Shown here piece by piece: positions 31,806 to 38,795 of a stretch of 64,000 bases of DNA (positions are counted from its first letter, which is position 1; each line of letters opens with the position of its first letter). Source of the DNA: Holophagales bacterium (GTDB taxonomy: Bacteria; Acidobacteriota; Thermoanaerobaculia; Multivoradales; Multivoraceae); the NCBI GenBank assembly GCA_009837885.1, contig VXSP01000043.1, positions 62,001 to 126,000 of the forward strand. Reading direction: 5' to 3'. The notes beneath the pieces were generated by a model. It was not told where the DNA came from. It searched no databases and saw only the letters and a program-made list of their open reading frames with translations. A program made the translations under genes and the position numbers.

Positions 31806-33442
31806 CTCGGCCGGCCGCCGGGGCTAGCAGGGGTCTCGGAGCCGAACTCTGGCGGCTGGCAGCCGCCGCGGAGACCGCGGAGTGGGAGAGCGGCGCGGCG
31901 CAGACCCGGCTGGTCGGACACTGGTGCCGGAGCCAGGGCCTGCCCGGCGCCCAGATCTACCACCGCGACGGCGGTCCGGTGGCGGCGTGGGGCGTGCTCG
32001 GCACCCGTGAACGGAGCCTGGAGCACGGCCTGATCCTCTACTACGCCGCGGCGGACGATGCGGCTCGCGATGAGGATGCCGCCGGCGGACAGGGGAACAC
32101 GCCGGAGGAGCACGACCTTGCCGGCGTGCTGGCGATCGGCCTCAGGCTGCGGGAACTGGCCGACGAACTGAAGGACCGGAAGTTCCAGGACAACTACAAC
32201 GTCGTCACGTTGCAGGCGGTCTACGACGTGGGGCTGGCGATCACCTCGACCCTGAACCTGGACGAGTTGACCGAGGAGATCCTGCTGCGCGCGGTGTCCC
32301 TTCTGGACGCCCGGCGCGGCGCCTTCTACCTGCTGGACGAAGAGGACCGCCTCTCGCTTGCCGGCACGATCGGCGGTGGCGCCCGCGAGGCGATCGACGC
32401 ACCGCCTACGGGTTTCGCCGAAGCCGGCATCGAAACGTTGGCGGCGGGCGTCATGCCGGACGCCGAACACTCGCTCGCGGTCCCCATCGAAGGGGACGGG
32501 GGCAGCGGGAGCGTCGGTCTGCTGGTGGTCGCCGACAAGGAGAGCCGGACCGGAGTCGGCCCGTTCGCCGCGTCCGACCATCGGGCGCTCTCGCTATTCG
32601 CCAACCAGGCCGCGATCGCGCTGACCAACGCGAAGCTTCACCGGCAGGCCCTCGAGAAGGAGCGCCTGGAGCGGGAAGTGGAACTCGCGGCCGAGATCCA
32701 GCGCAACATCCTGCCCGCCGAGATGCCGAGCGCGGGCTGCTTCGAGACCGTGGGCTGGAGCCGGCCTTCCCGCCAGGTCGGCGGCGACTACTACGGGTCG
32801 CTCCGGTTTGCCGGCTCGCGACGCGGTCTGGTGGTCGCCGACGTCACGGGCAAGGGCATGCCGGCCGCGCTCCTCGTTTCGACTCTCGACTCGGCCCTGC
32901 GGTTGCTGGTCGACGACTGCCGGCTGGGCGGCGAGGCCGCCGGGGCAGAACTCTCGCCGGAACTCTTCGACCGGCTGAACAAGCACATCGTCGAGAGCAG
33001 CGCCAGCAATCGCTTCATCACCCTGATCCTCACCGAGATCGATCCGCGAAACCGCGCCGTCCGCTACCTCAACGCCGGGCACAACCCCGGGCTCCTGGTG
33101 CGAGGGAATGGCGAGGTGACGCCGCTTCCGGCCAGCGGACTGCCGCTCGGCCTGCTTCCCTCGGCGAGTTACCGGGTGGAGCCTCTCGAGATGGGGCCGG
33201 GCGATCTCCTCTGCCTGTACAGCGACGGGATCACGGAGTGCGAGTCCCTGGACGGCGAGGAGTACGGCCAGGAACGGCTCGAGGACTTCCTTCGCTCGCG
33301 CCGCGAGCGGCCGCTGTCCGAGATCGTGGACGCCATCGATGCCGACGTGCAGCGCTTCGGCGCCGGCCTCCCCCAGGGCGACGATCAGACCGTCGTCCTG
33401 ATTCGTTGGGTGCGCGGGTCTTCTGACCCGCTGCCGCCGTAG
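31802..33442 (+). CDS. GAF + SpoIIE/PP2C serine phosphatase (RsbU-like)
   Basis: A 546-residue phosphatase: variable N-terminus, GAF domain (about residues 150-285; YDVGLAITSTLNLDELTEEIL, FYLLDEEDRLSL), a coiled linker (LEKERLEREVELAAEIQRNILP) and a SpoIIE-type PP2C domain (about 315-540) with metal-binding motifs QVGGDYYG, VVADVTGKGMPAA, NAGHNPGLL, YSDGITECES and GDDQTVVLIRW. It should dephosphorylate the STAS protein upstream. The last ten residues (VRGSSDPLPP) and the stop codon are supplied by hairpin repeat copy B at 33408. GTG 31802 overlaps the STAS gene stop. Confidence 0.9.
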   Translation: MTRPAAGASRGLGAELWRLAAAAETAEWESGAAQTRLVGHWCRSQGLPGAQIYHRDGGPVAAWGVLGTRERSLEHGLILYYAAADDAARDEDAAGGQGNTPEEHDLAGVLAIGLRLRELADELKDRKFQDNYNVVTLQAVYDVGLAITSTLNLDELTEEILLRAVSLLDARRGAFYLLDEEDRLSLAGTIGGGAREAIDAPPTGFAEAGIETLAAGVMPDAEHSLAVPIEGDGGSGSVGLLVVADKESRTGVGPFAASDHRALSLFANQAAIALTNAKLHRQALEKERLEREVELAAEIQRNILPAEMPSAGCFETVGWSRPSRQVGGDYYGSLRFAGSRRGLVVADVTGKGMPAALLVSTLDSALRLLVDDCRLGGEAAGAELSPELFDRLNKHIVESSASNRFITLILTEIDPRNRAVRYLNAGHNPGLLVRGNGEVTPLPASGLPLGLLPSASYRVEPLEMGPGDLLCLYSDGITECESLDGEEYGQERLEDFLRSRRERPLSEIVDAIDADVQRFGAGLPQGDDQTVVLIRWVRGSSDPLPP

Positions 33443-33469
33443 GCGGCTGGAAGGCGCCGGCCGAAGGCC
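33408..33469. repeat. Hairpin repeat, copy B (TGGGTGCGC family)
   Basis: Starts GGGTGCGCGGGTC at 33408 and carries successive hairpins GCGGGTC/GACCCGC (33414-33431), GCCGCC/GGCGGC (33433-33447) and GGCC/GGCC (33459-33469). Bases 33408-33447 match the reverse complement of 38199-38238 at 38 of 40 positions. It covers the 3' end of the SpoIIE phosphatase gene and the short gap to the convergent TldD/PmbA gene. Confidence 0.8.
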
Positions 33470-33477
33470 GTCCTAAC

Positions 33478-34872
33478 CTAGGCGGCGGTCAGCCCGTCCA
33501 CGTCGGCCACCGCCAGGGCCGGCGCGGAGGTGCCGCCCAGGAAGCCCTCACGCGAGGGACGGCAAGAGCAGGTGGCGCCGATGGCGAGCAGGTTGGAGAA
33601 CACGCGGAGCAAGCTGTCCTCCCAGACAAGATCGATCACCGGTTCCGCGAGTCGGCCGCCGCGCAGTCGACGCACGCCGCGGGCCCGTGCCCGCACCCGC
33701 ATGCGAGCGGGGTCGAAGCACTCGACCTGGTCCAGCCTGCTGACCCAGACGCCGCCGTCCGCGATGTGGAACAGGTCCTGATCGCTGTGCTTACCGGGTC
33801 GGAGGATCGTGTTGAGGGGATAAGCCTCCTCGCCGCCCGTGCAGTGGCAGGTTGGCGTGAGCCCGACGCGGGCAGCGGTGGCGGTGTCCAGCGCCGGCGT
33901 GCGCGGCACCCCTGCGGACACCAGCTCGACCGGAATCTTCGAGACGCCCTCCAGGTCGAAGGGAAACGGAAGGCCGCTCTCGCGGCAGGCGTCGTCGGCC
34001 AGGTCGAGGCGGCGGTCGAAGACCTGCACGCCCGTGTGCTGAAGCAGGAAGGACTCTCCTTCGACGATGGAGCGCGACGAAAACGCGTGGGTGTTCAGCA
34101 GTTCGACCAGCTCGATCGTCGCTTCGGGGGCCAGGAGCACGGGCGCGCCGCTCGGCGGCGTCGCCGCCGTGCCCGCGGGCGCTCTCCGTTCGCGTGCCGT
34201 CTCGACCAGTCGCGCAACTTGCAGGCCGTCGAGCGAACGGGCGGCGTGGCGGGCGAATCCGGCGCCGGGGTCGCCGCCGCTTCGCACCTCGACCATGACC
34301 GAACTGGCGCGTTCGCCGCGCGCGAGTTCCCGGCTGTTGGCGATGACGACCTGGCCGACGGTCCATTCGACGATCGCCGCTTCGTCGTCCCCTAGCGCCT
34401 CTTCCAGCAACCACCGCGCGGCCTTGGCATGAAGGCGTTCGAGGTCCGGGTCGCACACGGCGGTCGGAGAGGTCTTGGCCTCGTCGCTCCCGGGGAGCGG
34501 GGGAAGCGACTCGGGGGGCGCCGCCCGGGCGGCCGCAAGGGCCTGGCGCACCGCACTGTCGAACTCGCCGGTACGCACGCCTCCCGTGCGGTGGAGCCCC
34601 GGGCGTCGCCCCTCTCGCACCCTCACGGTGACCTGGCGGGAGCGCCGCCGGTAGCTGTCCAGGTCGGGAACGCGGTAGCCGGTGCGGCCGCGCCTGGTCT
34701 CCAGCCAGAGAATCTCCGTTTCGTCCGCCGGCGACCGGTCCACCGCGACGGCGAGTTCCTCCAGGACCCGGTCGAGCGAGCGCAGCCGGGGCTCGGCCTC
34801 GGAACGTCCGAACCGGCGCCTCCCCGATCGGCGGTCTGGCGTGCCCGGTCTCGAGGTGCGACGATCCGGCAC
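33478..34872 (-). CDS. TldD/PmbA-family protein (PmbA-like)
   Basis: A 464-residue member of the TldD/PmbA (modulator of DNA gyrase) family. The C-terminal half has VELLNTHAFSSRSIVEGESF and DLADDACRESGLPFPFDLEGV, then TCHCTGG, GGVWVSRLDQVECFD and a terminal EDSLLRVFSNLLAIG block, the typical PmbA beta-rich core. I see no HExxxH zinc motif, which is carried by TldD, so this is the non-catalytic PmbA-like partner or a divergent paralogue. No tldD is adjacent. The first 40 residues are Arg-rich and atypical. The ATG at 34872 diverges from pcm with only 24 bases between start codons. Confidence 0.8.
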   Translation of the reverse strand: MPDRRTSRPGTPDRRSGRRRFGRSEAEPRLRSLDRVLEELAVAVDRSPADETEILWLETRRGRTGYRVPDLDSYRRRSRQVTVRVREGRRPGLHRTGGVRTGEFDSAVRQALAAARAAPPESLPPLPGSDEAKTSPTAVCDPDLERLHAKAARWLLEEALGDDEAAIVEWTVGQVVIANSRELARGERASSVMVEVRSGGDPGAGFARHAARSLDGLQVARLVETARERRAPAGTAATPPSGAPVLLAPEATIELVELLNTHAFSSRSIVEGESFLLQHTGVQVFDRRLDLADDACRESGLPFPFDLEGVSKIPVELVSAGVPRTPALDTATAARVGLTPTCHCTGGEEAYPLNTILRPGKHSDQDLFHIADGGVWVSRLDQVECFDPARMRVRARARGVRRLRGGRLAEPVIDLVWEDSLLRVFSNLLAIGATCSCRPSREGFLGGTSAPALAVADVDGLTAA

Positions 34873-35810: not shown

Positions 35811-36206
35811 ATGAGCAACGCCAAGAAGAACAAGGAAGGCGACGAGGACGGCGGCAGCAACGTGACGTCGATGGATCTGGCCCGGGAAGCGGTCGCCGAG
35901 GGGGTGGAGAAGGCCCGCTCAGCTGTCAGTCACGGCGTCGACGCGGCGCGTGAGAGGATGCGGGATTCCCCGCTGTCGACACGGGTCAAGAAGGCGTCGG
36001 CGCGGGCTGGCGAGGCGGCCAAGGGAGGCTACGGCGCCGCCAAGGAGAAGCTCGGTCACGGCTACGAACGGGCGCGCAAGGACCTGGATCAACTGGTCGG
36101 CGACGTGAACGTGTATGTCCGCGACAATCCCGGCCGGGCAGTGCTGATCGCTGCCGCCGCGGGCTTCGTCCTGGGGTTCCTGCTGCGTCGTGACCGCCGA
36201 TCCTGA
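35811..36206 (+). CDS. DUF883 (ElaB/YqjD-like) membrane-anchored protein
   Basis: A 131-residue protein: an alanine- and lysine-rich amphipathic helical body (about residues 20-100, with AREAVAEGVEKARSAVSHG and AKEKLGHGYERARKDLDQL) and a C-terminal membrane anchor (about 108-126, AVLIAAAAGFVLGFLLRR). This is the DUF883 layout; the E. coli relatives bind ribosomes at the inner membrane in stationary phase. ATG 35811 is used; a GTG at 35796 would add five residues. It overlaps the next gene by 17 bases. Confidence 0.75.
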   Translation: MSNAKKNKEGDEDGGSNVTSMDLAREAVAEGVEKARSAVSHGVDAARERMRDSPLSTRVKKASARAGEAAKGGYGAAKEKLGHGYERARKDLDQLVGDVNVYVRDNPGRAVLIAAAAGFVLGFLLRRDRRS

Positions 36207-36420
36207 CCAGCCGGCGATCGAAGACCGGATCGTCGGCAGCCTGACGCCCGGTCTCGACTGGGTGGCGCTGGTGCGCGCCTATCCGCTCGCGTCCGTGGCG
36301 GTGGCGGCTTCGCTCGGCTTCCTGATCGGACGAGCACGGGGACGCGAGATCCTCGGCATCCTTGGCGACCTCGCCGGCGAGCGGGTCGACGAGAGCGTGC
36401 GGAGCGTCCTGATCCGCTAA
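36190..36420 (+). CDS. Small membrane protein
   Basis: A 76-residue protein with one membrane helix (about residues 32-48, PLASVAVAASLGFLIGR) and a charged C-terminal helix. I recognise no family. It starts at GTG 36190 inside the DUF883 gene, so the two are translationally coupled and may form a membrane pair. Its end is followed closely by the metallophosphoesterase gene. Confidence 0.65.
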   Translation: MTADPDQPAIEDRIVGSLTPGLDWVALVRAYPLASVAVAASLGFLIGRARGREILGILGDLAGERVDESVRSVLIR

Positions 36421-37277: not shown

Positions 37278-37367
37278 CCTGCGATCGCGCCCTCGCATGA
37301 CTAGCCTGCATGCGTCGCCGAGGTGCGTAGCGAGCGGCGCCGCGACCGCGGCAGGAGCTCGGTGAAC

Positions 37368-38795
37368 ATGCGGTCAGGCGTCGATCTGCGGGCCTTCGAC
37401 CGCGTGGCGGGCCGGGCCGAGACGCTGGACAACGGCCTGTGCGTGGTGCTTCTGCCGCAGAACGGGGCCGAGTCGATCGTCGTTGCTCTCTGCTATCGCG
37501 CCGGCAGCCGGGACGAGGAGCCGGGCGAGGGCGGTCTGGCCCACTTCGTCGAGCACATGATGTTCAAGGGCTCGGCGGCCTACGAGCCGGGTGCGATCGA
37601 CCGTCTGACTCAGCGGCTGGGCGGCACGAACAACGCGTTCACCTCGCACGACGCGACCCTCTACCACTTCCAGTTCGAGCGCGGATCGTGGCGGGAGGCG
37701 CTCCGGATCGAGTCCGATCGGATGCGAGGCCTGAGCCTCCTGCCGGCTGAAGTGGAACTGGAGCGCGAGGTGATCCTGGAGGAGATCCGGATGGTCGAGG
37801 ACGATCCCTGGGACGCCCTGGACCAGGCGGTCGCCGGGCGGGTGTTTGGCGACCATCCCTACGGGCGATCCGTGCTCGGCACGAGGGAGAGCCTGCGCGC
37901 CCTCGACGCCGCGGCGCTTCGTTCGTTTCACCGCCGGCACTATCGACCCGAGCGCGCGGTCCTGGTCTGCGCCGGGGGTTTGCCGCCTGACGCGACGGAG
38001 CGCATCGAGGAAACGCTCGGAGCTGTCCACTGGGTGCGCGGGTCTGACTTCCGACCGCCCGAAGACGGGCGCTCGGACTGTGACGCGGCTGGCGCAGGGG
38101 CGCGCCAGCCGGGTGCCGACCCGCCTACGGGCGGAGCCGCGGAGCGACGTAGGCCGGACAATAGGGCCGCCGGCCAAGGGCCGGCGACGATGTCGGATGC
38201 CGCCTGCGGCGGCAGCGGGTCAGAGGACCCGCGCACCCGGTCTTTCCGGATCGAGCTGCGCCGGGGCGAGACGCCGAGGCTGCTCGTCGCCCATCCGGCA
38301 CCGCTGCCCGACGACCCGGCTTACGTCCATCTCCGTCTGGCGCTTGCTGTCCTCTGCAGTGGACGATCGAGTCGCGTTCAGCGCGACCTCGTCGAGGAGG
38401 ACCCGCTGGCGCTCTGGACCTCGGCGGCGGTGACCGGACACCGGCTGGGCGGCATGGCGACCCTGTCGGCCGAGGCGGCCCCCGGCGTCCATCCGGAACG
38501 CCTGGAGAAGGAGCTGAACGTGCGGGTCGAAGGCCTCGCGAGCCGTCCGCCGGACGCCGAAGAGCTGGAGCGGGCGAAGCGAATCCTGTTCGCGGACTGG
38601 GTGTTCCTGCACGAACCGATCGCCGAACGCGCGATGACGGCCGCTCTCGAGCACGCCCTGTTCTCGCCGGGTTTCAGTCGCGACTCCTTCCGGGCGCTGG
38701 CGGATGCGACCGCGTCCGACGTCGCCGGCGCCTGCGCTGCCTGGCTGTCGCCGGAGACGCGAGTCGTGGGCTGGTCGCTTCCGAATGCCCAGTGA
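37368..38795 (+). CDS. M16 zinc peptidase, catalytic subunit, with repeat-encoded insert
   Basis: A 475-residue M16 peptidase. The inverted zinc motif HxxEH is HFVEHMMF (H59, E62, H63), with the downstream glutamate in EREVILEEI; GSRDEEPGEGGLAHF and NAFTSHDATLYHF are family blocks. Between the N- and C-terminal halves, residues about 222-291 are encoded by the 207-bp hairpin repeat at 38032-38238 and look like low-complexity linker (Arg/Gly/Pro/Asp-rich). The flanking halves remain in frame and normal. ATG 37368 has AGGAG ten bases upstream; GTG 37323 is a longer alternative. The next gene is its likely non-catalytic partner. Confidence 0.88.
   Translation: MRSGVDLRAFDRVAGRAETLDNGLCVVLLPQNGAESIVVALCYRAGSRDEEPGEGGLAHFVEHMMFKGSAAYEPGAIDRLTQRLGGTNNAFTSHDATLYHFQFERGSWREALRIESDRMRGLSLLPAEVELEREVILEEIRMVEDDPWDALDQAVAGRVFGDHPYGRSVLGTRESLRALDAAALRSFHRRHYRPERAVLVCAGGLPPDATERIEETLGAVHWVRGSDFRPPEDGRSDCDAAGAGARQPGADPPTGGAAERRRPDNRAAGQGPATMSDAACGGSGSEDPRTRSFRIELRRGETPRLLVAHPAPLPDDPAYVHLRLALAVLCSGRSSRVQRDLVEEDPLALWTSAAVTGHRLGGMATLSAEAAPGVHPERLEKELNVRVEGLASRPPDAEELERAKRILFADWVFLHEPIAERAMTAALEHALFSPGFSRDSFRALADATASDVAGACAAWLSPETRVVGWSLPNAQ
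38032..38238. mobile_element. 207-bp hairpin element with terminal inverted repeats (copy C)
   Basis: Bounded by perfect 13-base terminal inverted repeats, GGGTGCGCGGGTC (38032-38044) and GACCCGCGCACCC (38226-38238). Inside are several GC-rich hairpins, including GCCGGCC-AAG-GGCCGGC, CTGGCGC/GCGCCAG, GCCGCC-TGC-GGCGGC (38199-38213) and GCGGGTC-AGAG-GACCCGC (38215-38232). Its right 40 bases match copy B at 38 of 40 positions in inverse orientation. Length is 69 codons with no stop in the peptidase frame. No target-site duplication or transposase is evident, so it would be a non-autonomous (MITE- or REP-like) element. Confidence 0.75.

Follow-up and report, generated by a model that had tools for sequence, protein, structure and literature searches.

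A 207-bp segment within the gene of an M16 peptidase very probably originated through two successive in-frame insertions of palindromic mobile repeats, which we call B and A. As judged by comparison with related genomes, the insert is composed of two nested elements, with A lying inside the loop of the left hairpin of B (Table 1). The segment belongs to the window, i.e., the whole stretch of 64,000 nucleotides that was analyzed, whose host organism is a member of the Thermoanaerobaculia (Acidobacteriota).

A composite insert in an M16 peptidase gene

The segment was recognized, in an earlier note made from the sequence of the window, by 13-base perfect inverted repeats that enclose 69 hairpin-rich codons open in the peptidase frame. 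This description is accurate: the repeat GGGTGCGCGGGTC is present at 38032-38044 and 38226-38238, and a 490-aa ORF (37323-38795, plus strand) reads through the 207 bp without a stop, with orthologues suggesting that translation starts near 37368. When flanks are added, 15 of 16 bases of the inverted repeat pair. Each strand of the segment folds much better than shuffled sequences, with z-scores of -6.0 and -7.1. The 13-base inverted repeat by itself is unexceptional in this window, which has 70% GC and about 7 places with perfect 13-base inverted repeats at most 400 bp apart. It is the dispersed family of relatives, and not the inverted repeat alone, that places the segment beyond chance.

The note had also located the segment at the linker between the two peptidase lobes, and structure prediction sets it there. 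The protein was matched in all 60 relatives searched, retains the HFVEH zinc motif and has two Pfam domains, Peptidase_M16 (residues 42-187) and Peptidase_M16_C (residues 194-422). We ran AlphaFold on the window's M16 protein and 25 relatives. The model of the window's protein, which agrees with solved M16 structures, has two lobes with pLDDT mostly above 90, and residues 226-292 are mostly below 50. The insert is predicted to form a disordered linker that joins these two confident lobes. The peptides predicted from the inserts would be of the DIRPPEDGRSDCDAAGAGTRQPG type.

It might be supposed that the linker merely underwent ordinary low-complexity expansion, with palindromes arising by chance in GC-rich DNA. 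The M16 linker is indeed disordered and variable in length, and 13-base inverted repeats are not rare in the window. However, near-identical copies are present at other places in the genome as well as in relatives, one of which (G001) has B alone at the same M16 site. Given these dispersed homologous copies, we rejected chance expansion as extremely improbable.

Table 1. Features of the M16 insert, its host gene and a second B-type end in the window
Feature	Position	Strand	Evidence or remark
Host gene, M16 (insulinase-family) peptidase subunit	37323..38795	+	Pfam, ORF 490 aa
Composite insert, B doublet (about 142 bp) split by A (69 bp)	38030..38240	+	G001 orthologue has B without A
Left half of B's left terminal REP-like hairpin, CTGGGTGC-GCGGGTC, plus T left of A	38030..38045	+	BLAST, B consensus 1-16, 100%
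A element, 69 nt, GACTTCCG...CCGGGT; product in the M16 frame DFRPPEDGRSDCDAAGAGARQPG	38046..38114	+	R1, unit boundaries
A hairpin 1, 10-position stem, one C.C mismatch in the M16 copy	38051..38076	+	
A hairpin 2, 10-bp stem	38086..38111	+	
Right half of B's left terminal hairpin, GCC-GACCCGC	38115..38124	+	
B interior, more GC hairpins (CGCCGGCC/GGCCGGCG, TGCCGCC/GGCGGCA)	38125..38214	+	87% to B consensus 30-140
B's right terminal REP-like hairpin, inverted, GCGGGTC-AGAG-GACCCGC-GCACCCGG	38215..38240	-	
Second B-type end, extragenic	33407..33447	+	~30 bp past end of minus-strand ORF 33478-34872

Two repeat modules dispersed through a genus

The possibility, raised in the earlier note, that the genome contains no further copies does not hold: a BLAST search of the segment against the window's own genome gave 42 matches, which fall into the two modules A and B. 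In the same genome, the pattern GGGTGCGCNGGNC has 42 matches, compared to 7 for a reversed control pattern. B is a palindromic doublet of ~140 bp with 26-base inverted ends, CTGGGTGCGCGGGTCTTCTGACCCGC, each of which forms a hairpin around a loop of 4 bases. A has a two-hairpin core, often situated within the loop of a B-type end hairpin. DNA searches detected the family in all 21 genomes of the genus; outside the genus there were three weak matches only. These genomes are mostly metagenome assemblies, and the records of the host group appear, going by isolate names, to be largely sponge-associated metagenomes; a named relative among the matches is Candidatus Multivorans thiocomprendens. An assembly artefact is unlikely, since separately assembled species and one single-contig genome agree. 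We found no literature on repeats in this genus.

An alignment of 35 copies of A exhibits a three-way junction of 26 pairs, in which 93% of cells are paired. There are 86 double-changed cells, as against 34 in shuffles; the covariation score was matched by none of 500 shuffles, and sliding the pairing abolishes the signal. The corresponding covariance model, R1, found 48 copies of A in the window's genome and scores the M16 copy at 99.9 bits (38039-38123). A weak match elsewhere in the window (36198-36275; 18.9 bits, E 0.008) is either a decayed copy or chance. R1 detected A in every one of the 21 genus genomes (at least 729 copies), and neither in 39 genomes outside the genus nor in 128 other genomes of the class Thermoanaerobaculia. 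Copies per genome number about 146 in G019, a single-contig genome, and 9 in G003. The A core had no match in viral contigs, and a search of Rfam yielded no family, the best result being sub-threshold (18.2 vs 59.5 bits, E 0.74).

Most surviving copies are intergenic, and many copies of A are separated from the 3' end of a gene by no more than about 20-60 bp, where the gene calls for the survey of A come from a simple codon model trained on this data. The second B-type end in the window exemplifies the usual extragenic location. Tandem arrays of the A core, with three copies or so and a period of about 70 bp, occur in G019:C1 at about 1.816, 1.818, 3.088 and 3.618 Mb, and in L079:1517-1727. 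These arrays suggest that A has been amplified in place besides dispersing.

Length and flanks of the A unit

We delimited A units in a table of 88 rows, from which 7 reverse-strand duplicates or poor fits were dropped, leaving about 81 units. The length is 69 nt in 62 of these 81, the preceding base is T in 67, and the two bases that follow are mostly TC or GC. About 46 units sit in fully paired 6-bp arms. All in-gene units are 69 nt long, compared to 45 of 64 intergenic units (Fisher p 0.03), a bias that is no more than suggestive, as the in-gene set was gathered by hand and not sampled at random. In G019, 75 of 120 copies are co-oriented with the G-rich strand (p 0.008), but this strand bias is not usable as evidence, as it is confounded by gene co-orientation; in the window's genome, A is co-oriented with flanking genes about 2:1 in a reading by hand.

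It is conceivable that A is a long-form variant of the REP hairpin that spread with REP arms through recombination or gene conversion. More than half of the A units do lie within fully paired REP-type arms, and A copies are in tandem in L079 and at several G019 sites. However, A lacks REP arms in RumA, HisA, CaiB and an AAA ATPase (2-4 of 6 arm pairs), and in the first three of these genes it is a clean addition of 69 nt relative to empty orthologues. We regard this explanation as quite unlikely.

Filled and empty sites in other genes

In the window's genome, A occurs in frame in a VWA-type gene, a RumA-like tRNA methyltransferase, a glycosyltransferase (GT2), a two-domain CoA-transferase (CaiB) and HisA, as well as near the ends of several other genes. 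The AAA ATPase that contains A is that of a relative. The VWA, CaiB and HisA genes were named by reading the sequences by eye, and HisA was confirmed by a match to a solved structure. For filled and empty alleles, we searched the genus with joined flanks and then compared the sites. The filled and empty lengths are 96 and 27 nt in VWA, 87 and 18 nt in HisA, and 90 and 21 nt in CaiB, i.e., +69 in each case. VWA also has a third state without the hairpin, and the empty outgroup G019 has 3 nt in HisA. At VWA, HisA and CaiB, filled and empty sites differ by just the length of the unit, and there is no duplicated flank for A at these sites. From these sequence comparisons, A is a clean insertion of 69 nt (23 codons) in VWA, hisA and the CoA-transferase. 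The RumA-like gene has 75 nt when filled and 6 nt in four empty orthologues (+69), but its ancestral length is uncertain, because two other relatives have a gap of 24 nt.

The HisA insert lies between a helix ending in ELARQ and the strand IQLGGGLRD, and the remainder of the protein aligns to solved HisA. Since this insert is common to the distant G013 and absent in species closer by M16, its distribution requires transfer, parallel insertion or loss. In the HisD gene of G005, A occupies the loop of a B-type hairpin, and G008 and the window's species have the B-type hairpin without A; this HisD insert is within a stretch that is variable among relatives. The his genes (L316, which is G000:C14:66800-72400, L310 and L313) have been struck repeatedly: A is in hisA in G000 and G013, and B-type ends with or without A are in hisD in G000, G005 and G008.

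The A unit is more conserved than its flanks in RumA, VWA and one CaiB pair, and not in HisA, where the unit (62 of 69 positions alike) diverges as the flanks do. In RumA (L248/L304) and in CaiB of G000 and G020 (L252/L320), the 69-nt unit is identical amid flanks that differ by 9-16% or more, which could reflect constraint, gene conversion or transfer. Such identity, together with the strong covariation and the many copies about 20-60 bp from gene 3' ends, is what one might see if A were primarily a functional structured RNA under selection (e.g., a transcript-end or mRNA-stability element) whose presence within genes is incidental. On the other hand, no Rfam family matched, copy numbers that vary from 9 to about 146 between species fit mobile DNA, and the HisA unit diverges as its flanks do. 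Moreover, covariation is also expected if A is recognized as folded single-stranded DNA. We consider a primary RNA function unlikely.

The evidence from other genes also bears on the interpretation in the earlier note, which proposed a dispersed, non-autonomous repeat that tolerates insertion into coding sequence. This much is borne out by the many copies in the genome, some of which are in frame in other genes. However, the segment is not a single element, as the note supposed, but the doublet B, linked to a REP-associated tyrosine transposase (RAYT), with the 69-bp A nested in its left terminal hairpin. In other genes, it is chiefly A, rather than the whole 207 bp, that recurs. As A recurs in frame in unrelated enzymes, proteins are lengthened as it spreads, and the proposed role in diversifying proteins stands, going by the sequences, solely in the form of such lengthened proteins.

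History of the M16 linker

The M16 orthologues differ in the presence or absence of the segment; thus, the alternative mentioned in the note, that all of them carry it with diverged sequence, does not hold. The linker is 225 nt long with both B and A in the window's species, and 156 nt with B only in G001, a difference of exactly 69. Remnants of B ends are found in frame in the linkers of G010 (81 nt), G002 (72 nt), G005 and G008 (66 nt each), and small remnants of a similar end occur separately in the M16 genes of G017 and G012. In most other species, the linker is a different one that lacks B. All 20 of the 20 linker lengths compared in the genus are multiples of 3. The exact boundaries of B and any target duplication are unreadable in M16, because the original linker was partly replaced.

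The distribution among relatives implies that B came first and A later. In the first step, the RAYT-linked doublet B would have entered the disordered M16 linker in a common ancestor of some members of the genus. Comparison shows this step, with B whole in G001 and in-frame remnants in four other genomes, and its direction is inferred. In the second step, likewise shown by comparison of orthologues, A arrived precisely within the loop of 4 bases in the left hairpin of B in the window's lineage, adding 23 codons.

Candidate mechanism of mobilization

Pfam's Y1_Tnp was found in 12 of the 21 genomes of the genus, as a single copy in all but one of those, and not in the window's own assembly (97.6% complete, 47 contigs). 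In G001, G002, G003, G008 and G018, copies of B are present on both sides of the Y1 gene. The best NCBIfam family for six Y1 proteins is NF047646 (REP_Tyr_transpos), with 76-86 bits against a cut-off of 80 that two of the six exceed. Copies of B are clustered, with a spacing of 1-5 kb, around the RAYT gene and in other parts of some contigs (G001:C25, G003:C8/C21 and G018:C5/C23). Repeats flanking a RAYT gene constitute the layout of REPtrons and TIRtrons (PMC3733652, PMC8266576), and tyrosine transposases flanked by TIRs have been described in Acidobacteria (PMC3733652). TnpA-REP proteins act on folded single-stranded REPs, which they cut at CT (PMC8266576).

From the gene arrangement, we infer that B is moved by RAYT. 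Specifically, B would be mobilized in trans by this HUH/Y1 transposase via folded single-stranded DNA. A, an orphan element, may be moved by a similar hairpin-recognizing reaction, in view of its clean insertions that lack target duplication and usually have the form T^A-unit^TC or ^GC. The enzyme that acts on A is a guess, because the window's assembly has no Y1 gene and a copy of A is near a RAYT gene at one locus only (G009). For insertions in coding sequence to survive, the reading frame would have to remain open and the protein to accept a flexible loop. Our tentative proposal, which has a reasonable though less than even chance of being correct, is that A is an orphan 69-bp mobile palindrome with a three-way junction that is moved in trans, favors the loops of REP hairpins, makes no target duplication and seeds 23-residue loops in housekeeping enzymes throughout the genus.

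Comparison with known systems

The closest counterparts of B are RAYT-associated REP/BIME and TIR repeats (PMC3733652, PMC8266576). Like these, B is a short palindrome with inverted hairpin ends and many copies, is mostly near gene ends and flanks an HUH tyrosine transposase gene in relatives; unlike them, its terminal hairpins host a second, nested element. Two REP types were considered and rejected. B is not a classical GTAG REP, as its ends read CTGGGTGC-GCGGGTC and contain no GTAG. CGTC REPs have a CGTC tag, a stem of 8-9 bp, a loop of 4-5 nt and a CCA-type tail (PMC3733652), whereas A has 10-position stems, 6-nt loops and no CCA tail, and contains CGTC nowhere but in the complementary strand of its inter-hairpin linker.

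A is comparable to REP-targeting insertion sequences (e.g., ISPpu9, PMC8450116) in having a REP palindrome as preferred target, but differs in being 69 bp long and without a gene of its own. For insertion sequences that target REPs, PMC3733652 cites Tobes and Pareja 2006. A MITE of a DDE-type insertion sequence was rejected for A, given that VWA, HisA and CaiB have no target-site duplication. The features of IS200/IS605 elements that enter into our comparison are partly established knowledge. By analogy, A resembles IS200/IS605 ends and their derivatives in its subterminal hairpins, lack of target duplication and fixed bases at the insertion point (PMC8266576). In contrast to IS200/IS605, there is no transposase in or beside A, and no guide/target pair of the IS200/IS605 type was identified for A.

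Rickettsia palindromic elements (RPE) are the classic in-frame palindromic repeats (PMC10969869), and REP dimers or clusters that code for 20-30 or more residues lie inside genes of several bacteria (PMC3733652). A and B may be likened to both in being in-frame palindromes in unrelated housekeeping genes (PMC10969869, PMC3733652), as they are inserted in several unrelated conserved genes, namely M16, VWA, RumA-like, HisA, CaiB, HisD, AAA ATPase and GT2. The likeness to RPE is one of functional analogy, R1 having been searched within the class. RPE differ in phylum and sequence, and the present case has a fixed 69-bp unit with a three-way junction, exact empty/filled pairs and nesting.

Our data provide empty/filled pairs for insertion of palindromic repeats within coding genes, and M16 displays successive stages. 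With such pairs, one can test by what route RAYT-linked repeats and their satellites are mobilized, and what share of bacterial protein loops comes from mobile palindromes as opposed to slippage or recombination. In-frame palindromic repeats as such were already known from Rickettsia RPE and intragenic REP dimers (PMC3733652, PMC10969869). What is new is the phylum, with protein-coding palindromes extended to Acidobacteriota that appear to be symbionts of sponges, along with the nested arrangement, a hairpin loop as target, a unit of fixed and frame-neutral length, the orphan element and the set of empty/filled pairs.
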